The translations under genes were made by a program, and so were the position numbers. DNA of 64,000 bases from Sulfurimonas sp. HSL-1656 (GTDB lineage: Bacteria > Campylobacterota > Campylobacteria > Campylobacterales > Sulfurimonadaceae): the NCBI RefSeq assembly GCF_039645585.1, contig NZ_CP147915.1, positions 1,240,001-1,304,000 of the forward strand. The letters run 5' to 3'. This document shows, piece by piece, positions 52,790 to 62,949 of the stretch; within the stretch, counting starts at the first letter, position 1; the number at the start of each line of letters is the position of its first letter. The notes beneath the pieces were generated by a model that saw only the letters and a list, made by a program, of their open reading frames with translations, was not told the DNA's origin and did not search any database.

Positions 52790-52864
52790 TGGTGACCCCA
52801 CGGAGACTCGAACTCCGGTAACCAGAATGAAAATCTGGGATCCTAACCGCTAGACGATGGGGCC
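52790..52864 (-). tRNA. tRNA-Glu (UUC)
   Basis: Read on the minus strand, GGCCCCA pairs with TGGGGTC, and a D-arm and T-arm (GGAGTTCGAGTCTCC) are in place. The anticodon stem is CCAGA/TCTGG with loop TTTTCAT, anticodon TTC, so Glu. The 3' CCA is encoded at 52790-52792. A TATAAT on the minus strand about 40 bases upstream is a likely promoter, and a T-run follows downstream. Confidence 0.95.
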
Positions 52865-52957: not shown

Positions 52958-53503
52958 TTACATATAGAATTCGCGAAGGGCGCGGATAATGACCGCATTT
53001 TTGGAGATGCTTTCCGCCTTGGCGTTGTCGTTGACGAGGTCATACAGGTCAAGGGGCAGGGAGATAGAGAAAGTCTTCGTTTCAACTTTTTTCTTGCGCT
53101 TCACCATATTGGTGACGTTTTGAAGCAGTTCGATAATCTTTTTCGTATCGATAGGCTTCTGGATGAAGCTGTTGACACCGATTTCGATTGTCTCGGAGAT
53201 CTTCTGGATATCGTTGCTTGCAGAGATGACAACGACCATCTGCTGCGGGTTCATCTCACGGATCTTGCGCGCAAGCTCGATACCGTCCATTTCCGGCATG
53301 ATAATGTCAACAAAGACGATATCCGGTTTTTTCTCTTTGAAAAGCTCCAGGGCTTCTTTACCATTAAAAGCGGATGTAACATCCTTAAAGAAGTTCTTGA
53401 ACGTTGAACTGAGCAGTTCGTTCGCAACTGCTTCGTCTTCAACGACCATCGCACTCATCTTTTTCGTCTCTTCGGTCAGCTGAACCAGGTCAACATTTTT
53501 CAT
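52958..53503 (-). CDS. response regulator: receiver domain fused to a ribbon-helix-helix domain
   Basis: 181 residues. The CheY-like receiver (about 15-135) has AMVVEDE at its start, phospho-acceptor Asp in IVFVDIIMPEMDG and Lys in FIQKPID. The last 40 residues (KTFSISLPLDLYDLVNDNAK then SKNAVIIRALREF) have the strand plus two-helix pattern of CopG/Arc-type DNA-binding domains. So output is probably DNA binding by an RHH dimer, an unusual pairing. No histidine kinase is next to it. Start 53503 has GAGGAA eight bases before it. Confidence 0.82.
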   Translation of the reverse strand: MKNVDLVQLTEETKKMSAMVVEDEAVANELLSSTFKNFFKDVTSAFNGKEALELFKEKKPDIVFVDIIMPEMDGIELARKIREMNPQQMVVVISASNDIQKISETIEIGVNSFIQKPIDTKKIIELLQNVTNMVKRKKKVETKTFSISLPLDLYDLVNDNAKAESISKNAVIIRALREFYM

Positions 53504-53650
53504 TTCTGTTTCCTCATGATGATTTCTGTATGTATTTTACACTGTTATTTAGCAAACAACGTTAACGGAATTAAAATTGTTTACTCGTGATATTACGTTG
53601 CAAAATTATAGTAACAATTAAATTACACAAACTTAAATTTATGGGAAAAA

Positions 53651-53848
53651 TCAATATTTTTTAAATTGCTCGAGCCATTCGAGGTTGGATTCGACCGCTT
53701 TTTCCTTCTGGTCCAGGAGAGAAGCGATGATCGATTTGAGGGTCTGCTCGTCCATAAAAGCAAGCATATTGGGGTTGATGTGGGTATCGCCGCCGTAGCC
53801 GTTCAATAGTTTTTCGATGTCGTTGATCAATTCCTGTTTCGTATTCAC
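53651..53848 (-). CDS. small conserved hypothetical protein downstream of gltA
   Basis: 65 residues, charged and helical (KQELINDIEKLLNGYGGDTH, LLDQKEKAVESNLEWLEQF), no span. Its ATG overlaps the gltA stop by four bases, so it is co-translated with citrate synthase. Function unknown; position suggests a small accessory of the same transcript. Confidence 0.65.
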   Translation of the reverse strand: MNTKQELINDIEKLLNGYGGDTHINPNMLAFMDEQTLKSIIASLLDQKEKAVESNLEWLEQFKKY

Positions 53849-55119: not shown

Positions 55120-55423
55120 GGCGAACTCCTTTCCGATGTATTCTTCCAAAGGATACCTAAAAACAAATGCAAAGCGCCAAAGGTCTGCTTATCATTAATC
55201 GCCGTTTCAAAAGATATTTATCTAGTTAACATAATGTATATTCTCTTGAAAACAATTTTCATCGCCCCCCGTACCTTCCGTGCCTTTCTGGCATCAGGTT
55301 AACAAAATATAAATTTTGCTTCTGGCCTTTCGGCCCTCAAACCTTAAACGCAAAGCCGCCAAAGCCTCCCCCGAAATATCCCATGAACCTTAAGCCAAAA
55401 ATTCCTTGAAAAGGACACCTAAA
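55120..55423. other. junction between gltA and the provirus block, with short repeats
   Basis: No gene is supported in these 304 bases. The first half is AT-rich and should hold the gltA promoter on the minus strand. AAAGGATACCTAAAA (55148-55162) recurs with one mismatch at 55410-55424, at the ribosome site of the first viral gene. AAATGCAAAGCGCCAAAGG (55165-55183) recurs imperfectly at 55346-55366. TGAAAA-caa-TTTTCA (55248-55262) is a palindrome and GGCC-TTTC-GGCC (55324-55335) a small stem. One of these may mark the left attachment site. Confidence 0.4.
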
Positions 55424-56056
55424 ATGGGATACCACGTATCGATACCGAAACGGATCATCTACGACAAGCGGCTGCGCGACGTTGACCTCCGCCTCTACAC
55501 GATCATCGCGGAGGCATGTAACGCACAGGGCTTCTCTGAGATCACAAACGGTAAGCTGATGGAACTTTCCGGCAAGGCTGAAAGACCACTTCAGAAGTCG
55601 CTTAAATCTCTCCAGGACGGAAACTACATCGTTGTCGTCCACAACGTCAAGGCGTCGGACGTATACCCGAAGAACCTCCCCCGCGTAATCTGGCTCGAAG
55701 AGGCGCACGCATCGCACAAAGGCAAGGCGGCCCGTGAACGCAGGAAGACCCGCGAAAACGATTACCGCCTCTTCGTACAGTGGCTCAAAGCGGACTGTAA
55801 AAACATTTACATCCCGGTCGAGATCGGCGGCCTCGTCCACAAGTACATGATCCACAGCGACGGCCTGCTCTATCGCTATGAAACCGGGGAACGCCCTTCC
55901 CTCATGAGCAGCGAAGACAGCGCGGAGGTCTACAAAAAGATGTTCCGCAAAAAGAGCGTGGTTATCCGGTTCATGGAAGACGGCGGCCACAGTACGGCCA
56001 TTGCCAACCTCGCCCAACTGGCGCAGCAGAAAAGGATCGACCATGACAATCAATGA
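55424..56056 (+). CDS. winged-helix protein, possible replication initiator or regulator
   Basis: 210 residues. The N-terminal 75 (VSIPKRIIYDKRLRDVDLRL, ITNGKLMELSGKAERPLQK) have the helix-turn-helix pattern of phage and plasmid replication-initiator or RepA N-terminal domains. The middle is basic (KAARERRKTREN). It could start viral replication or control the operon. ATG 55424 has AAGGA nine bases before it and was chosen over TTG 55406. First gene of the viral block. Confidence 0.6.
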   Translation: MGYHVSIPKRIIYDKRLRDVDLRLYTIIAEACNAQGFSEITNGKLMELSGKAERPLQKSLKSLQDGNYIVVVHNVKASDVYPKNLPRVIWLEEAHASHKGKAARERRKTRENDYRLFVQWLKADCKNIYIPVEIGGLVHKYMIHSDGLLYRYETGERPSLMSSEDSAEVYKKMFRKKSVVIRFMEDGGHSTAIANLAQLAQQKRIDHDNQ

Positions 56057-56381
56057 CCTCGAAACAAATCCTTTCTTCGGCGTTGTGCTCGACTTCGCAA
56101 TCGAGAACAGTATGGAGAAGCGCCGTTTCCCTTCCCGGCTCGTCCAGGACCGTCTCGTCATGCACACCAACACCGGGAACGGGTATGAAACGCAGATCGC
56201 CGGGGCCGTCTATGAGTCAAACCACGCGAACGGCTTTCACCTGACACCATCCGGTGCGCTGCGGATCATCAAAGGCACGGCCCGCGATGAAGACGTGGCC
56301 GACCTCGAGCACGACCTTAACGTCGCCGCAGAAAGCGGCCTATTCCTCCCGGACGCCGAAGCGTTCGAAATGTACTTCTAA
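56043..56381 (+). CDS. viral hypothetical protein
   Basis: 112 residues from ATG 56043, overlapping the winged-helix gene by 14 bases; the upstream in-frame region only repeats that gene's end in another frame. Soluble, acidic, no recognisable motif. Phrase HTNTGNGYETQIAGAVYESN suggests a beta segment. Function unknown. Confidence 0.55.
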   Translation: MTINDLETNPFFGVVLDFAIENSMEKRRFPSRLVQDRLVMHTNTGNGYETQIAGAVYESNHANGFHLTPSGALRIIKGTARDEDVADLEHDLNVAAESGLFLPDAEAFEMYF

Positions 56382-56390
56382 GGAGCACAA

Positions 56391-56639
56391 ATGAAAATCA
56401 CCGAAACATCAAACACGATCCTGGCTGCGGCCGATCTTCTCGACATCCCTACGATTGAAGCCGCAAAGGCCAAAACGATCCCGTATGAAAACGTGACCGT
56501 CCAGGAACGCTACACGATCAAGAACTTCTGGAAGAAGCCCTCTTTCTGGGTCGTGATCGGAACGGCCATCACCGCGGGAGCCGGCGGGGACTACTTCCAC
56601 GCCGTTACGGCCGTCTTCTCACTCTTCGGGGGTAACTGA
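56391..56639 (+). CDS. small viral membrane protein
   Basis: 82 residues. The C-terminal half has a hydrophobic stretch (SFWVVIGTAITAGAGG) and a second weaker one (FHAVTAVFSLFGG). AAGGAGCACAA precedes the ATG. The stop shares TGATGG with the next gene. Likely a virion-membrane protein. Confidence 0.6.
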   Translation: MKITETSNTILAAADLLDIPTIEAAKAKTIPYENVTVQERYTIKNFWKKPSFWVVIGTAITAGAGGDYFHAVTAVFSLFGGN

Positions 56640-56971
56640 TGGATGAAGCGAAAAAAGAACTGAATACGCCGCCGGAATCTATACCGGCGGAACCGCAGCT
56701 GGTTGAACTCGACGAAGATCAGCTCGACCAGATCGCCGACCGCCTGAGCGGAAACATAACCGCTGAAGTGACAAAGGCCGTCAAAGAGAAAATGGAACTC
56801 GCAGCGCAGGCCCCTGCCCCCCAACCTGAGCCGGAAACGGAACCGGAAAAGAAGCGCGGCTTCCCTTTCATCATCGTCGGCATCTTTAGCCTCGTCGGTA
56901 TCGCTGCATTCATCGCCGTGAAGGCCAAAAAGCCCGAAGGGACGGCACAGGGGGCCGAAAATGCAGGTTAA
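56639..56971 (+). CDS. viral protein with Pro/Glu-rich linker and one membrane span
   Basis: 110 residues. An acidic N-terminus (VELDEDQLDQIADRL) leads to a proline-glutamate linker (APAPQPEPETEPE) and one span (FPFIIVGIFSLVGIAAFIAV). The build resembles small virion-membrane proteins. The ATG overlaps the previous stop. Confidence 0.6.
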   Translation: MDEAKKELNTPPESIPAEPQLVELDEDQLDQIADRLSGNITAEVTKAVKEKMELAAQAPAPQPEPETEPEKKRGFPFIIVGIFSLVGIAAFIAVKAKKPEGTAQGAENAG

Positions 56972-57545
56972 CGGAACGGACAACGGAATCGCTACGGGAA
57001 CGGGTAGCGGAGACGCTGCGGAAGTGGCGGACGCTATCGCCGGGGAACAACACACCTCTGCTTTCAACCGTGCGGAGCTGATGGAAAAGACAGGCGCGGA
57101 GCTGGCACAGTTGGCAGCGCCCTATTCCGACAAAAAGCTCTCGACGCTCGAACGTATGAGCAAAGCGAAGCTCTGCGACATCATCATGAAAGGCGGCGAA
57201 GAGAAAGGCGACGACGCTCCGAAGGCCAGAGCGGCCAGAACGGAGAGCGAAACGGAGCAGATTATCAACATGGGCCTGACGGTGCTCGAAGCGTTCAAAC
57301 AGAACCGTGACGGCAAACCGCTTAACCCGTTAGCACGTGAAATGTTCCAGAAACAGGCCATTATCGCCCTGGACGAACAGGTGCAGCAGGACCGCGTAAA
57401 TCTCAACACTGCCTCAAAAGTGATGCTCTTCGGAGCGGGTGCCGTTGTGGTGATCGACGGTATCTTCGGGCTTGAAAACTCCCCTGCCCTACTCTCGAAG
57501 CTTAAAAATAAACTTTTCAGCCGGAAAAAGGAGGCGGAAAAGTGA
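56961..57545 (+). CDS. viral membrane-anchored protein
   Basis: 194 residues, helical and charged through the middle (EQIINMGLTVLEAFKQNRDG), with one C-terminal span (VMLFGAGAVVVIDGIFGL) and a basic tail (KNKLFSRKKEAEK). It overlaps the preceding gene by 11 bases and the packaging ATPase gene by four, so it is translated with the ATPase. It might anchor the packaging vertex in the membrane, which is a guess from position. Confidence 0.6.
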   Translation: MQVNGTDNGIATGTGSGDAAEVADAIAGEQHTSAFNRAELMEKTGAELAQLAAPYSDKKLSTLERMSKAKLCDIIMKGGEEKGDDAPKARAARTESETEQIINMGLTVLEAFKQNRDGKPLNPLAREMFQKQAIIALDEQVQQDRVNLNTASKVMLFGAGAVVVIDGIFGLENSPALLSKLKNKLFSRKKEAEK

Positions 57546-58180
57546 TCCAAAACCAGATCGTGACCGTGATCGGGCATAAAGGCTACGGTAAAACGAAGCT
57601 TACTGAGTTGTTAGCACTTCTCAAACGCCGTCCAACGATCATCGCGGACCCGCGCTATCAGTACGAGCCTAAACCGTGGCGCGTCCACTTTGGCAGCGTG
57701 GAGCAGTTCCGCAAATGGATCCACGATCGCGACAACATCGCCACCTTCTACGAATACAAATTCGAACTGGTTGTCCAGGGCGTTGACCCTGACAGCTTCG
57801 AAGTACTGGCGTGGATCGTCATGAAGATGAAGGCCATCACGTTTCTCGTCGACGAGGTTGACATGTTCGCCCCGCCTACCATGAACAACAAGAAAGCCTT
57901 TTATCACCTGATTCACTACGGACGTCACAACCGGATTGACATCATCACGACGTCACGACGACCTCCAAATATAAGTCGTAACCTTACAGCTATGACAGAC
58001 CTATTTTTCTTCTCAAAAATCCGCGAAAACACGGACAAAAAGTATATGGAGAACTATATAGGAAAAGAGCACGCAGAAACGGCGAAGCGCTTGGAGCGCT
58101 TTCACTTCCTGATGATTGGAGAAGACTTGGAAAAGGCGCAGATCATCAGCATCCCGCGCAAAGCGGCGGAGGCGATATGA
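57542..58180 (+). CDS. A32-like DNA-packaging ATPase
   Basis: 212 residues, no membrane span. Walker A is GHKGYGKT (11-18), Walker B ITFLVDE (99-105), and a sensor-type segment HYGRHNRIDIITTSRRPP follows (125-142). This FtsK/HerA-like layout, with this size, matches packaging ATPases of PRD1- and PM2-type viruses. Zot of filamentous phages is longer and has a membrane anchor. GTG 57542 overlaps the previous stop. The nearby capsid-like gene supports the reading. Confidence 0.75.
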   Translation: MIQNQIVTVIGHKGYGKTKLTELLALLKRRPTIIADPRYQYEPKPWRVHFGSVEQFRKWIHDRDNIATFYEYKFELVVQGVDPDSFEVLAWIVMKMKAITFLVDEVDMFAPPTMNNKKAFYHLIHYGRHNRIDIITTSRRPPNISRNLTAMTDLFFFSKIRENTDKKYMENYIGKEHAETAKRLERFHFLMIGEDLEKAQIISIPRKAAEAI

Positions 58181-58413
58181 CACACTATCTCAAAATTGAA
58201 AAAGATCATTTCATTGCAGTGAAGCAATACAAGAAAAAAGCTGAAATGCGTAGGAATGATAGAGGGTTCGAAGTAGATGATGAAATCATACTTTGTGAAA
58301 TTGAAAACGGTGTTGAGACTGGTGAAAAGTGGCATGTTTATATCACCCACATTCAAACAGGAATGCAATATGGAATTGCGGATGGATTCGCAATGCTTTC
58401 CATCGAATTTTGA
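58177..58413 (+). CDS. DUF3850 / ASCH-like small protein
   Basis: 78 residues. LKIEKDHFIAVKQYKKKAEMR followed by NDRGFEVDDEIILCEI matches the DUF3850 pattern (ASCH-like fold, probable RNA binding). AT-rich compared with the flanking structural genes, which suggests separate acquisition as cargo. ATG overlaps the ATPase stop. Confidence 0.7.
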   Translation: MTHYLKIEKDHFIAVKQYKKKAEMRRNDRGFEVDDEIILCEIENGVETGEKWHVYITHIQTGMQYGIADGFAMLSIEF

Positions 58414-58423
58414 AAGGAAATAA

Positions 58424-58606
58424 ATGGAACAGACAGAACATAAATACAAGGTCTACCGGAAAAAACAGCATATTGAAGTTGTAGGTACATTCCCGAACGG
58501 CGACGTAATCGTCCAGAACAAAGGCGACGATTCTGACCAGTGGAAGATCGACAAAGAAACCTTCGAACGTCAATACGTTGAAGTGAAACAGAAAAATAAA
58601 AAATGA
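58424..58606 (+). CDS. viral hypothetical protein
   Basis: 60 residues, soluble and charged (KYKVYRKKQHIEVV, FPNGDVIVQNKGDD), with a beta-rich pattern. Also AT-rich. GAAAGGAA precedes the ATG. No family recognised. Its stop overlaps the ATG of the next small gene (ATGA). Confidence 0.55.
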   Translation: MEQTEHKYKVYRKKQHIEVVGTFPNGDVIVQNKGDDSDQWKIDKETFERQYVEVKQKNKK

Positions 58607-58710
58607 ATGATTGTCCTATCGGGTGCTTAAATGTTTTCCTATTGTTGGTAGCACTTTTTTTGACCCCGTTTGCAATGATTTACGCATTAATAAAGACAAT
58701 TTGTTCGTAA
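58603..58710 (+). CDS. small hydrophobic viral protein (35 aa)
   Basis: ATGA overlap with the preceding gene opens 35 codons. Residues 8-32 are one long hydrophobic span (VFLLLVALFLTPFAMIYALI) with cysteines at 4, 8 and 34. It could be a holin-like or virion-membrane protein. Confidence 0.5.
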   Translation: MNDCPIGCLNVFLLLVALFLTPFAMIYALIKTICS

Positions 58711-58819
58711 CCACAGAGCGCCTTTAGGGGCGTTCGATGGCTTCGGCCAAAATCTTATTCTATGTCACGTTGATCGTTTGGAGATCAGCGCGGCGTGTTT
58801 CCATAGGAGGAAATACAAA
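58711..58819 (+). promoter_or_regulatory. intergenic stem and leader before the capsid operon
   Basis: AGCGCC-tttagg-GGCGTT (58716-58733) forms a six-pair stem with one G-T pair. It is followed by 87 bases ending in AGGAGG, a near-perfect ribosome site, before ATG 58820. This is the only gap above 40 bases within the viral block, so a terminator plus late promoter is plausible. Confidence 0.4.
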
Positions 58820-58912
58820 ATGAAAAAAACCTACATCACGGCGTTTGTCGTCGGTATGCTCGTCGGCCTCGGCTCTGACATTCTCAGCGTTAAAGCGGGG
58901 GTGAACGTATGA
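58820..58912 (+). CDS. tiny viral protein (30 aa)
   Basis: Strong AGGAGG nine bases before ATG 58820. The 30 residues have a hydrophobic core (AFVVGMLVGLGSDIL) after a basic start (MKKT). Stop overlaps the next ATG (ATGA). Likely a virion-membrane micro-protein. Confidence 0.55.
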   Translation: MKKTYITAFVVGMLVGLGSDILSVKAGVNV

Positions 58913-59025
58913 AGCTGATCAACACCACCATGATCCTCTCTGCTCTGGCAACACTGGCCGGTATCGCAACGTACAAGAAAGTCGCTTCGCCGACCGTCCG
59001 CAAAACGCTCGGAGGTAATGCATAA
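58909..59025 (+). CDS. tiny viral protein (38 aa)
   Basis: ATGA overlap with the previous gene; 38 residues with one hydrophobic helix (MILSALATLAGIAT) and a basic C-terminus (KKVASPTVRKTLGG). Its TAA overlaps the ATG of the capsid gene (TAATGG), and its 3' end provides the GGAGG ribosome site for capsid translation. Confidence 0.6.
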   Translation: MKLINTTMILSALATLAGIATYKKVASPTVRKTLGGNA

Positions 59026-59981
59026 TGGCACGTATCTACCTCCACAAGGCAGGACAGGCGGCATTTACACCGACAACGCAATCGCGCATTGAACTCCCGC
59101 GCAACTTCCACATGCACAACCTTGTGTGCAAGCTCGTTGTCAACCACGACAACGCTGCGGCCGTTTCCCTTCTCAGCGGCGGATTCCTGAACCTGATCAA
59201 CCAGATTCAGATTGTTTCGAACGGCAGCAAGACGCACAAGCATGTTGACACGAAAAAGCTCTCCCACAATACCCTGTACAACATCGGCAAAAACATGACG
59301 AAAAGTGTCGTCACGACCGTTTCGTCGGCTGGCAACATTTCGACGATCTATTTCGCCATCGACTTCAGTATGCTCGGCATGGCCCGCCCGTATGACACCA
59401 TCGAGAACACGGCCCTTTACACGACGTTCGACATGCTCATCGACTGGGCATCTGAAGCAAGCATCGGTACAGGTGTAACCGTCAACAGCGCGACGCTCTT
59501 CGTCTCCTCGAACGAACTTGTCGGATATGCACGCAATCCGGGTGAACGAATCGCACACAACATCGAAACGCAGCTCAGTAAAGAGATCACGAGTAGCACG
59601 ACAGAGTTCCAGATCGACCTCCCGGTCAAAAAGGTTTACCGCCGCCTGCTCATCGCCGCTACTGTCGACGGTGTTGTCAACAATTCCGTTGTGAACAGCG
59701 TGAAGCTGAAAAGCGGTACGACGGTGATCGCTGAATGGGATGCCGATGATCTTCGCGCCTTCAACATCCGCAAAAACCGCATCATCACCGAATCGGATGC
59801 CGACGGCCTTCTGCTCATCGACTTCTGTGCCCGCGGGAAACTCTCCGATGCACTCGACACGAACGGACAGTTCAATACGCTCGAACTCGTCCTCAGTGTC
59901 ACCAAACAGGCCGGTACGAACAATGTGACGGTCTACACTGACGAATTCCAGACAGAGAATACAGTCGAAGTGCAGAAATAA
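59025..59981 (+). CDS. probable double-jelly-roll major capsid protein
   Basis: 318 residues with two beta-rich halves (about 1-150 and 165-318). The start IELPRNFHMHNLVCKLVVN, then FLNLINQIQIVSNGSKTHKHV, is the pattern seen at the start of double-jelly-roll capsid proteins (I-x-LPR, a strand, then NLIxxIxIxxNG). The second half repeats it in FQIDLPVKKVYRRLLIAATV and VKLKSGTTVIAEWDADDL. No signal or span. It is the largest gene in the block and the best supplied with a ribosome site, as expected for a capsid. Assignment rests on pattern; a structure prediction would settle it. Confidence 0.7.
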   Translation: MARIYLHKAGQAAFTPTTQSRIELPRNFHMHNLVCKLVVNHDNAAAVSLLSGGFLNLINQIQIVSNGSKTHKHVDTKKLSHNTLYNIGKNMTKSVVTTVSSAGNISTIYFAIDFSMLGMARPYDTIENTALYTTFDMLIDWASEASIGTGVTVNSATLFVSSNELVGYARNPGERIAHNIETQLSKEITSSTTEFQIDLPVKKVYRRLLIAATVDGVVNNSVVNSVKLKSGTTVIAEWDADDLRAFNIRKNRIITESDADGLLLIDFCARGKLSDALDTNGQFNTLELVLSVTKQAGTNNVTVYTDEFQTENTVEVQK

Positions 59982-59992
59982 AAGGGGAATCC

Positions 59993-60256
59993 ATGTTTGA
60001 AGAAGATGGATTTTTCAGCGGCCTCAGCGCAAAAGACATTCTCGGTTACGGCCTTGAATCGTACAAGACGAAAGAGAGCATCACAAAGAACCAGGCGGAC
60101 AAGGCCGCGTCTGATGCTCAAACAAAAGCGTACGAGCAGCAGCAGCAGAAAGCCACGATGCCTACAGGTTTCACCATCGACAAAAAAACAGGGATCTATC
60201 TTGGTCTCGGCGTCGGTGCGATCCTGCTCGGGATCCTCGCAATGAAGGCTAAGTAA
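59993..60256 (+). CDS. small viral membrane protein
   Basis: 87 residues. A helical Gln-rich middle (ASDAQTKAYEQQQQKATMP) precedes a C-terminal span (IYLGLGVGAILLGILAM). GGGGAATCC precedes the ATG, 12 bases after the capsid gene. Probably a minor capsid or membrane protein linking shell and membrane. Confidence 0.6.
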   Translation: MFEEDGFFSGLSAKDILGYGLESYKTKESITKNQADKAASDAQTKAYEQQQQKATMPTGFTIDKKTGIYLGLGVGAILLGILAMKAK

Positions 60257-60639
60257 TGAACCTTCTCGGCAGCAGCTCGAACAACACATCCAGCCAGACG
60301 CTGACGAATACGCTCTCGTTCAACCCTATCATGAACATTGGCGACAGCAATGACGCCAAAACAGGGTTTGATGCTCAAACACGTGCTGACAGCACTGCTA
60401 CAACGAGCAACAAAGACGAATTCGGTCTTAGTTCTGGTGTGGCTTTAGGTTCAGGAGCTAGCGCATCAGGCGGCCCGGTTGGAGTCGGTGACGATGTACA
60501 GCCCACAGAGCAGCAGGCGGCGAAAACGTCTGTACTGTCTGGTCTTGCAGGTAACACACCTGCCATGATCTTTGGTGTCGTCGTCATCATTGGCATCGTA
60601 GCGGCTATCACCGCTTCGTCCAGGAAAAAGGGTAACTGA
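60256..60639 (+). CDS. Ser/Thr/Gly-rich viral membrane protein
   Basis: 127 residues. The first 80 are low-complexity Ser/Thr/Asn/Gly (SSNNTSSQTLTNTLS, SGASASGGPVGVG) and the end is one span plus a basic tail (MIFGVVVIIGIVAAITASSRKKG). It overlaps both neighbours by a base or so. A membrane-anchored outer or penton-region protein is possible. Confidence 0.6.
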   Translation: MNLLGSSSNNTSSQTLTNTLSFNPIMNIGDSNDAKTGFDAQTRADSTATTSNKDEFGLSSGVALGSGASASGGPVGVGDDVQPTEQQAAKTSVLSGLAGNTPAMIFGVVVIIGIVAAITASSRKKGN

Positions 60640-61034
60640 TGTGCTGCTCTATCGGCGATATCACCGGAGGCATCACAAAAGCTGTAGGCGGAGTCGTTGA
60701 TAGTGTAGGTGGATTGCTCGGAGGCGGAGGAAGTCAAGGAACGACAACTTCGAATCAGGACAGCACCGCAAACGTCACCGTCACGCCGGAAACGAACGTG
60801 ACGACGAACGTCGACCTGGAACCGCTCGCCGCAGTGCTGGCAGCTTCCGGTGCATCAACGACCAAAGCACTCAACAACGAAGCCGCGGCGAAACGTGACG
60901 CGGCAGCACTCGAATACCAAAACGCGGCACTGACACGGGCCACCGTGTCCGGATACATCGAGAAGGTCTTTTACGTTGCGATTATCGTCGGCGGGATCGT
61001 CTATCTCGGTAAAAAGAAAAAAGGAGGGAAATGA
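60639..61034 (+). CDS. viral membrane protein with Gly-rich N-terminus
   Basis: 131 residues. Gly-rich, weakly hydrophobic start (GGVVDSVGGLLGGGGSQ), a polar beta-like middle (NVTVTPETNVTTNVDLEPL), a helical stretch and a C-terminal span with basic tail (VFYVAIIVGGIVYLGKKKKGG). Together with the two preceding genes it forms a set of similar build. Confidence 0.6.
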   Translation: MCCSIGDITGGITKAVGGVVDSVGGLLGGGGSQGTTTSNQDSTANVTVTPETNVTTNVDLEPLAAVLAASGASTTKALNNEAAAKRDAAALEYQNAALTRATVSGYIEKVFYVAIIVGGIVYLGKKKKGGK

Positions 61035-61753
61035 AACCCTACATCATCATCCCGAAAAGCATCACAAACGGCCTGAAGGATGTGGAGATCGGGACGGCCG
61101 GGGGATACTTAGTTGTCCTCGATGCTCCCGCACTGGCAAACATTACCGTCAAGCTCAACGACCAGAACAACGACCCGATCCCGCTTGAAAAGTTTCAGGG
61201 GATCGAGGCGAAAGGAGTAACTAAAGTCTTTGTTTCCGCCGATGCAGTCGCAGGAGGGATCATCAAACTCGCGCAGGCGAAAACGGCGGAGGACTTCCGC
61301 ATCCTGACGCAGATCAGCCAGGTCGATATCAACAGCCTCGGCGGGTATGACCAAAATGCACTTGATCAGCTTACGGCTGCTTTCTCTGCATCGCTTCCGG
61401 CTGTGCTTGACAAAGTTGTTGATAAATATGATCTTCCCCAAAATCATAGAGCTTCTACTAATGCAGGTACATTAACAATTCTCTTTGACTTCTATGCTGA
61501 CTGTGACAAAATGACTGTAAGAATGTTCTGTTATAACACTTCCCCTGATACGTTGTACTGGGGGAATGTTGTAGCATATTACGATAGTGAAATCGTTGCA
61601 AATGCATCTGTGAAAACATTTACAGACCAACCTTACATAGAGTTTACAATAGAAAATTGTAGAGGGAAGCACTTGGTAATTAGTGGAATTTCTGGAAATG
61701 GGACTTTCACCAAAGTCGGCTGTATGTTAAGCCTTTACACACTTAAAGCATAA
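61031..61753 (+). CDS. mosaic spike or receptor-binding candidate
   Basis: 240 residues. The N-terminal half (to about 130) is GC-rich like its neighbours and beta-rich (YIIIPKSITNGLKDVEIGTA). From about base 61400 the gene becomes sharply AT-rich and the protein turns to a different beta pattern (TLTILFDFYADCDKMTVRMF). This looks like a conserved virion-anchoring part joined to an exchanged receptor-binding part. No named family. ATGA overlap with the previous gene. Confidence 0.6.
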   Translation: MKPYIIIPKSITNGLKDVEIGTAGGYLVVLDAPALANITVKLNDQNNDPIPLEKFQGIEAKGVTKVFVSADAVAGGIIKLAQAKTAEDFRILTQISQVDINSLGGYDQNALDQLTAAFSASLPAVLDKVVDKYDLPQNHRASTNAGTLTILFDFYADCDKMTVRMFCYNTSPDTLYWGNVVAYYDSEIVANASVKTFTDQPYIEFTIENCRGKHLVISGISGNGTFTKVGCMLSLYTLKA

Positions 61754-61762
61754 GGATTAAAT

Positions 61763-61975
61763 TTGACACCTGAAGAACAAGCAGTAATTGAAGCATTGCT
61801 CAATCCTGACGAAGTAATTGTTTCGATTACTTACACGAAAATTATGGAAGATTCTAGAGGGTTTCCAATCTTCTCAACTGATTATGTAAACCCTCCTTCT
61901 CAATACAGACACATAACTACAATTTATCCGTATGGTGTCGCAATTCTTCAAGACCTCGGATATGTTGCGCCGTGA
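61763..61975 (+). CDS. small AT-rich viral protein after the spike gene
   Basis: 70 residues from TTG 61763 with AAGGA seven bases before it. Acidic helical start (TPEEQAVIEALLNPDEV) then a beta-type segment. The base composition matches the AT-rich half of the spike candidate, so the two probably moved together. It may be a chaperone or partner of the spike. Confidence 0.5.
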   Translation: MTPEEQAVIEALLNPDEVIVSITYTKIMEDSRGFPIFSTDYVNPPSQYRHITTIYPYGVAILQDLGYVAP

Positions 61976-62033
61976 CAGAGCGCTAATCACCGCAGCAGCC
62001 TTCGCGCTGCTCTACTTCGAAAGGAGCTTTTTT

Positions 62034-62537
62034 TTGTACGGATTACCCTCAAAAGCCGCGCTTGTCGAAATCGTCGACAACGTTGTAAGCGTACTCGGCG
62101 GCGGCGAACCTGCACGGCTTCTTTTGCTTGAAACAGCGGCGGCCGAAACGGACATGGGAAACGCTATTGACCGCTCTTGGTTTACCGGGATCGGGCTGAT
62201 GCAGTTCGACCCTATCGGCTTCGATGATGTCAAAGAGCGGACCCCGGCGCGGATCAAAAAGATCGTGAACCAGTATTTCGGCATCGATATCGACCGGGCG
62301 ACGATCAATGACCTTCGTTGGTCCCCCATGCTCTCAGTCGTCTTCGCCCGTCTGAAATATAGACTTATCCCTGAACCGATACCGAAAAAACTTATCAGTT
62401 CAGTTCCGTTCGACATAGATGATCCTGAAATGATCGATGGGAGAGATGCTTACTGGAAACGTCATTACAACTCGATGGCCGGGGCCGGGACGCCGGAACA
62501 CTACGTGAAGGCGGCACAACGCAATGGAATTGCCTGA
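62034..62537 (+). CDS. lytic transglycosylase-like viral lysin
   Basis: 167 residues. Catalytic Glu is in LLLETAAAETDMGNA, followed by the GLMQ motif in FTGIGLMQFDPIGFDD and the end AYWKRHYNSMAGAGTPEHYV, the order of SLT/lysozyme-like enzymes. It should open the host wall at entry or exit. The frame is open to 61932, but TTG 62034 lies seven bases after AAGGAG, the best ribosome site, and starts in a non-coding-like spacer. ATG 61962 is the alternative. Confidence 0.7.
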   Translation: MYGLPSKAALVEIVDNVVSVLGGGEPARLLLLETAAAETDMGNAIDRSWFTGIGLMQFDPIGFDDVKERTPARIKKIVNQYFGIDIDRATINDLRWSPMLSVVFARLKYRLIPEPIPKKLISSVPFDIDDPEMIDGRDAYWKRHYNSMAGAGTPEHYVKAAQRNGIA

Positions 62538-62949
62538 CTCATCAATCTTTGGAATGGTAGGCGAAGGATACAGCTACCTTTTCGGGTCAAATGATCCTGG
62601 AATGTCACAATCATCTGAACCTGACCAGAACCAAAACGTACTCGGTATCACTGAAACGGAAAACGGTGGGGTGAGTGCATCGTTCGGTGAAGGAAGCGTC
62701 GCGCAGCAAGTCTACGACGCAACGCCGGATTGGCTCAAATACCTGACCTTCGACAGCTACACGACGGCCGACCCGTCAAACGGCAACTTCAACACCTCCA
62801 CGCAGTTTGAAAAGGACGTGGCGGACATTGCCGACGGTATCGGATCAAAACTTCTCAAGTACGGCGCTTACGCCGCCCTGCTCTTCATCGGGTTCACCTC
62901 GCTCAAAGAGTACACGGCGGAGCGGTCCAGAAAGGCCGCCCGTGCTTGA
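62524..62949 (+). CDS. viral membrane protein
   Basis: 141 residues overlapping the lysin end by 14 bases. Polar N-terminal two-thirds (DPSNGNFNTSTQFEKDV) and one span near 115-132 (LLKYGAYAALLFIGFTSL) before a basic tail (EYTAERSRKAARA). No family recognised. Confidence 0.55.
   Translation: MELPDSSIFGMVGEGYSYLFGSNDPGMSQSSEPDQNQNVLGITETENGGVSASFGEGSVAQQVYDATPDWLKYLTFDSYTTADPSNGNFNTSTQFEKDVADIADGIGSKLLKYGAYAALLFIGFTSLKEYTAERSRKAARA

Follow-up and report, generated by a model that had tools for sequence, protein, structure and literature searches.

Most DNA-binding response regulators have outputs that belong to a small number of helix-turn-helix types. In the OmpR/PhoB, NarL and NtrC families a receiver with a conserved phosphorylation site is followed by a linker and a C-terminal DNA-binding output, either a winged helix or a LuxR-type or Fis-type domain, and phosphorylation of the Asp is expected to control binding. 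Ribbon-helix-helix (RHH) domains read DNA by a β ribbon and need a dimer to fold; they are normally obligate intertwined dimers. Free-standing CopG and Arc are not known to carry a signal-input domain; NikR (Helicobacter/E. coli) combines an N-terminal RHH with a metal-binding domain and its DNA binding is controlled by a signal.

The window, by which we mean the whole 64,000-nucleotide stretch of Sulfurimonas sp. HSL-1656 DNA that was analysed, encodes on its minus strand a putative receiver-RHH response regulator (52958..53503; 181 aa, ATG start), which is delimited by its open reading frame, Pfam matches and full-length orthologues. The protein resembles the OmpR/PhoB, NarL and NtrC regulators in its order of receiver, linker and C-terminal output, but its predicted output is a 37-residue RHH domain. 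It resembles CopG, Arc and AmrZ (PF01402 and relatives) in the predicted fold and in the short repeated sequences of its relatives' own promoters, but here the RHH domain sits at the C-terminus, behind a receiver in the same chain. As in NikR, the RHH is attached to a regulatory domain, with the difference that the input is a receiver. The closest published combination found is that of the Lokiarchaeum Arc-type RHH-HisKA-REC proteins, whose origin is uncertain (PMC5847659); these also hold RHH and receiver in one polypeptide, but in the passage that names them the RHH comes first, followed by HisKA and REC, and the arrangement given there is not that of a response regulator with an RHH output (PMC5847659). 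Searches of open-licence PubMed Central papers brought up no account of a response regulator that joins a receiver to an RHH output, and the combination may be listed somewhere else, for example in subscription papers or domain-architecture databases. We put at roughly 70% the probability that the protein is a two-component response regulator with a DNA-binding RHH output, which is switched by phosphorylation, binds TGTT repeats and controls its own gene.

The receiver domain (residues 18–130; 53114..53452, minus strand) is matched by PF00072 over residues 19–127 (E 1.1e-26, 93.6 bits against a Pfam cut-off of 30.2). The acidic pair Glu22/Asp23, Asp66 (codon 53306-53308, minus strand), Ser94 and Lys116 are invariant in 36 of 36 aligned sequences, and we take their roles, including that of Asp66 as phospho-acceptor, from alignment to a CheY protein. 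Judged by sequence, the window protein thus has the response-regulator features that were tested, namely the PF00072 match and the conserved active-site residues. Active-site and tail motifs are present in all 81 proteins compared, the window protein included. Among the best 60 of 274 matches in a search of solved structures, the best were CheY-type receivers and the matched stretches were essentially the receiver part. An OmpR/PhoB winged-helix output is absent, as only ~50 residues follow the receiver and these match RHH. Between the two domains lies a linker (residues 131–143; 53075..53113, minus strand) with a Lys/Arg run, the least conserved segment of the protein; pLDDT falls below 50 at residues 138–143 in the full-length model, which is uneven overall (47.5–78.7 pLDDT across five models). 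A link to defence systems was considered and rejected, as the PADLOC matches were weak (best E 0.0005) and lay over the receiver part.

The sequence-only reading had proposed that a receiver is fused to an RHH output formed by the last ~40 residues, and this is borne out by sequence, conservation and predicted structure taken together. The tail (residues 144–180; 52964..53074, minus strand) of the window protein matches PF01402 RHH_1 over residues 145–180 with an E-value of 0.0089 and 16.4 bits, below the cut-off of 20.5. The same family is matched at E ≤1 by all 36 aligned sequences, the window protein and 35 orthologues (best 4.5e-5), and on this sequence evidence the match exceeds chance. 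Ten orthologues rescored singly reached 15.8–23.2 bits, two of them above the cut-off (21.1 and 23.2) and eight at 15.8–18.7. When the tail profile was compared by sequence with solved structures there was no relevant match, only FucU at E 0.7.

Structure prediction of the tail (residues 127–181; mean pLDDT 82.5, with block means of 88–96 from residue 147 onward) gave a short first helix, an extended segment at 144–150 and helices at 151–164 and 168–180, which is not the plain helix that would have spoken against the proposal. DSSP assigns no strand at 144–150 in the monomer model, where the segment is extended and unpaired. In RHH proteins this strand pairs with that of the second subunit, and its absence may be explained by the pairing strand being missing from a monomer model. 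The tail is predicted to adopt a strand-helix-helix fold, with the N-terminal strand expected from the extended segment. In a Foldseek search the first matches were Arc, StnY and AmrZ, at weak E-values (0.1–0.2, best 0.1), with CopG also among the matches, and the best TM normalised to the target, 0.86, belonged to Arc 1baz lower in the list. VIA-align superposed the tail on Arc and CopG with Z of 5.4–5.7 and rmsd of 1.2–1.4 Å over 41 residues; its top seven rows were Arc, CopG and PutA (Z 5.3–5.7), AmrZ and NikR were also superposed, and 45 of the 50 rows shown are recognisable as RHH proteins. All Z values of the tail are below 8, a range in which, as the tool itself cautions, matches may be only middling, and the case for RHH is for this reason built on sequence profile, conservation and structure jointly.

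Of the protein's domains, the tail has changed least. Mean pairwise column identity over the 36 sequences is 0.91 in the tail, 0.80 in the receiver and 0.63 in the linker (131–141), and the strand (144–150) and the turn (164–167) stand at 1.00, being identical in 36 of 36. Within the receiver, residues 88–130 (α4-β5-α5) are better conserved (0.89) than the first half (0.75). At the nucleotide level, 153 pairs of 18 sequences gave pN of 0.083 for the tail, 0.125 for the receiver and 0.26 for the linker, with pS of 0.75–0.82 in each. Both the 36-sequence alignment and the 18-sequence tail alignment were drawn from the 81 sequences. Outside the same-family alignment the strand varies, reading TFSITLP in four orthologues from a second family and IFSITLP in one from a third, variants that change Ser148 and Thr144. 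One orthologue (L096, 5001-5546) has an in-frame stop inside the RHH tail, reflecting either a sequencing error or a pseudogene; it was left out of the 36-sequence alignment and kept in the 81-protein motif and locus counts.

Orthologues at E ≤1e-45 occur in 48 of 397 genomes of the phylum, made up of 43 from among 51 listed genomes of the same family, presumably that of Sulfurimonas and Sulfuricurvum, four of the second family and one of the third. The 80 loci kept from 98 confirmed relatives are mostly from Sulfurimonas, Sulfuricurvum, Helicobacteraceae or Campylobacterales. When the tail alone was used as query against 200 genomes, 19 matched at E ≤0.01, 17 of them with the same receiver-RHH fusion and two weakly. 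The window genome holds only one other RHH_1 candidate at E ≤1, a 74-residue frame below the cut-off. A mobile origin of the tail was also considered and dropped, since tblastn with 43 aa at E ≤1 returned a single weak plasmid match (E 0.4) and none in phages.

The promoters of the regulator gene carry repeated TGTT(A) half-sites across relatives, which are exactly 10 bp apart in about half of the promoters. The promoter set was derived from the 80 loci, of which three were dropped for too little upstream sequence, leaving 77 and the window; the coding end of the small ORF upstream was removed by a pattern-based mask, and stretches below 70 nt, those holding N and near-duplicates were then discarded, which left 48. 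TGTT-N6-TGTT (AACA-N6-AACA on the other strand) is found in 23 of these 48 promoters and in 3 of 254 upstream regions taken from these loci as controls, the controls being richer in G+C (0.32 vs 0.24), and TGTTA in 48/48 vs 113/254; without deduplication the exact repeat occurs in 29 of 78. AACA-N6-AACA came top of an unbiased scan of words, with a Fisher value of 3e-18; shared descent of the promoters makes this value overstate the significance, and ten random splits of the controls gave nothing better than 2.6e-4 for their top words. Before masking, when codons of the small ORF still contributed to the words counted, the repeat stood in 24 of 53 promoters vs 1.75 expected from dinucleotide shuffles. 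Copies on one strand are most often 10, 16 and 26 bp apart, and lesser peaks lie at 3 and 6. Among the four promoters of the second family, TGTT recurs at 10-bp spacing in one (L197) and at 16-bp spacing in two (L196, L198).

In the window, the intergenic region upstream of the regulator (53504..53650, minus strand) contains TATAAT at 53605-53610 and TGTTA at 53612-53616. The exact TGTT-N6-TGTT was not found in this promoter, and one-mismatch copies number three vs 0.69 expected, a count reached by 4.4% of shuffles; one of them, ATCACGAGTAAACA (53578-53591, minus strand, AACA-N6-AACA), lies just downstream of TATAAT. TGTTA occurs twice vs 1.4 expected. The longer pattern TATAAT-N3-AACA-N6-AACA occurs ten times in 60 genomes, vs four times for a reversed control, and is absent from the window genome. 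Six of the ten lie within 150 nt upstream of the regulator (G013, G014, G015, G019, G021 and G032) and four elsewhere; as the pattern was read from these promoters, and five of the six are in the set, the count shows rarity elsewhere and is not an independent discovery. The four matches elsewhere, from one pattern in 60 genomes, were dropped as regulon candidates, being equal in number to those of the reversed control.

The repeat in relatives may be the binding site of the receiver-RHH protein itself. It could also belong to another regulator or be a core promoter feature, with the RHH protein binding elsewhere, a reading that we regard as unlikely. Campylobacterota promoters have periodic T-rich tracts, the copies in the window are degenerate, and TATAAT has the repeat before it in some loci and after it in others, all of which would suit this reading. 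The comparison within TATAAT-bearing promoters argues the other way, with TGTT-N6-TGTT in 22 of 43 orthologue promoters and 1 of 77 controls, as does the clustering of the exact longer pattern at one gene, albeit a pattern chosen from these promoters, and a 10-bp spacing suits RHH dimers. A stem-like inverted repeat was seen by eye shortly before the regulator start codon in five Sulfuricurvum loci (L079, L086, L090, L091 and L101), for example GCGACAT...ATGTCGC in L086 and GTGATAT...ATATCAC in L091; its arms seem to change together, and it is possibly a leader hairpin or a second operator.

A candidate kinase partner is found beside the regulator in some lineages. At least 600 nt of downstream sequence was available for 72 of the 80 loci. 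In 12 of these a histidine kinase with the motif HQWRQP lies 658–695 nt past the regulator stop, always on the opposite strand (tail-to-tail), and in the remaining 60 no kinase with this motif turned up in the downstream sequence scanned, which was at most 3 kb. The motif was absent from all 69 stretches searched within 3 kb upstream of the regulator and occurred twice in 214,707 bases of further flank. A kinase fragment at a contig end lacks it and is outside the 12 (L045). Nine of ten downstream proteins tested against Pfam have PAS and histidine kinase domains, and the tenth (L106) is a GGDEF protein; the protein downstream in L103 (L200) has PAS and kinase domains by Pfam. TGTT-N6-TGTT was not seen upstream of ten adjacent kinase genes, the stretch in L107 being only 8 nt.

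In the second family, a FIST-type kinase is tail-to-tail with the regulator in all four genomes that have the regulator gene, ~100 bp apart in L195 and overlapping by ~11 bp in L196–L198; both kinases tested by Pfam (L195, L196) have FIST and HATPase_c domains. Two FIST-domain histidine kinases lie in tandem at 1067-5196 of L195, and the FIST kinase at 5674-7719 of L196 adjoins the regulator.

A query with the kinase helix of L047 (genome G013) was run against 41 genomes; six of them (G011, G013 itself, G014, G016, G019 and G023) have a copy with 69% identity or more, all six adjoining the regulator. The next best was 64%, and the window genome reached at most 57%, in an unlinked gene. Because the copies at or above 69% all stand beside the regulator, and the window genome reaches only 57%, the kinase accompanies the regulator in part of the lineages, whereas that of the window lacks it or has another in its place. 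No histidine kinase lies beside the regulator in the window genome, and its best candidates for an orthologue of the adjacent kinase (L202, L203 and L201, the last an open frame of 659 aa in which some segments look membrane-like) were rejected, their kinase helix being at most 57% identical.

The regulator is surrounded in the window by gltA, a 65-aa ORF, tRNA-Glu and gltX. The 65-aa ORF (53651..53848, minus strand) lies directly upstream and is a conserved, stable neighbour; it precedes the regulator in 56 of 58 loci and is found in 37 of 60 relatives overall, with nothing above the cut-off in Pfam/NCBIfam. It is found in G002, G017, G025 and G036, where no full-length regulator was seen, and was not found in G014 and G023, both of which have one. 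The tRNA-Glu gene (52790..52864, minus strand) lies just downstream, where some relatives have the kinase gene. As the 65-aa ORF and the regulator occur apart, and the downstream neighbours vary among relatives, a function deduced from gene neighbours was rejected and the neighbourhood is read as a stable position only.

The tail might alternatively serve mainly for dimerisation or protein contact, making the protein CheY-like or an antitoxin-like partner and not a transcription factor. RHH domains do occur in antitoxins, several of them among the VIA-align rows, and no target gene is indicated except the regulator itself. This proposal nevertheless appears improbable: the ribbon residues expected to point towards DNA are the same in all 36 sequences, the relatives' promoters of the regulator gene carry repeated half-sites, and the conserved neighbours recognised by eye look like housekeeping genes. 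Another helical output, such as an RNA-binding ANTAR domain, is scarcely credible, for although the RNA-bound response regulator EutV is among the full-length fold matches, it aligns with an rmsd of ~7 Å and a target TM of ~0.5, the tail alone matches RHH proteins by predicted structure, and every aligned sequence matches RHH_1 at E ≤1.

In the favoured model of a phosphorylation-switched RHH regulator, tails would pair into RHH dimers and the two-stranded ribbon, with Thr144, Ser146 and Ser148 facing DNA, would read a TGTT half-site. Phosphorylation of Asp66 would alter receiver dimerisation or free the tail, after which dimers could bind neighbouring half-sites cooperatively; one consequence would be control, probably repression, of its own gene, and the receiver-RHH protein is probably self-regulating. 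In the window genome the kinase would have to act from elsewhere. The initial suggestion that phosphorylation could control RHH dimer pairing is here modified: as RHH domains are normally obligate dimers and such an output needs the dimer to fold, the switch must work by another route, and it is more likely that phosphorylation governs how receivers dimerise, masking, or the cooperative contacts that RHH dimers make with each other along a repeated operator. This view fits the higher conservation of the α4-β5-α5 half of the receiver and the 10-bp promoter repeats of relatives.

We give even odds to the broader proposal of a separate class of response-regulator output, in which a phospho-controlled RHH repressor binds in arrays to the 10-bp repeats of its own promoter, is kept across the Sulfurimonas/Sulfuricurvum family, and works with PAS or FIST kinases, which would be interchangeable and would have been lost in some lineages. 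If true, this would add a class of response-regulator output, provide environmental sulfur bacteria of one family with a conserved regulator whose operator can be tested, and offer a small system in which to study how phosphorylation controls cooperative ribbon binding.

Elsewhere in the window, a run of phage-like genes occupies 55406-62949 on the plus strand and looks like a tailless, possibly double-jelly-roll, prophage. It includes a frame that weakly matches a replication initiator (55406-56056), a phrog_3108 protein of 201 aa, and a 318-aa protein (59025-59981) of phrog_28223 (unknown function) without a solved relative, for which capsid protein is a guess. A 212-aa ATPase at 57542-58180 is a relative of B204, the genome-packaging ATPase of STIV (E 2.4e-5), and also matches phrog_2666 (head and packaging).
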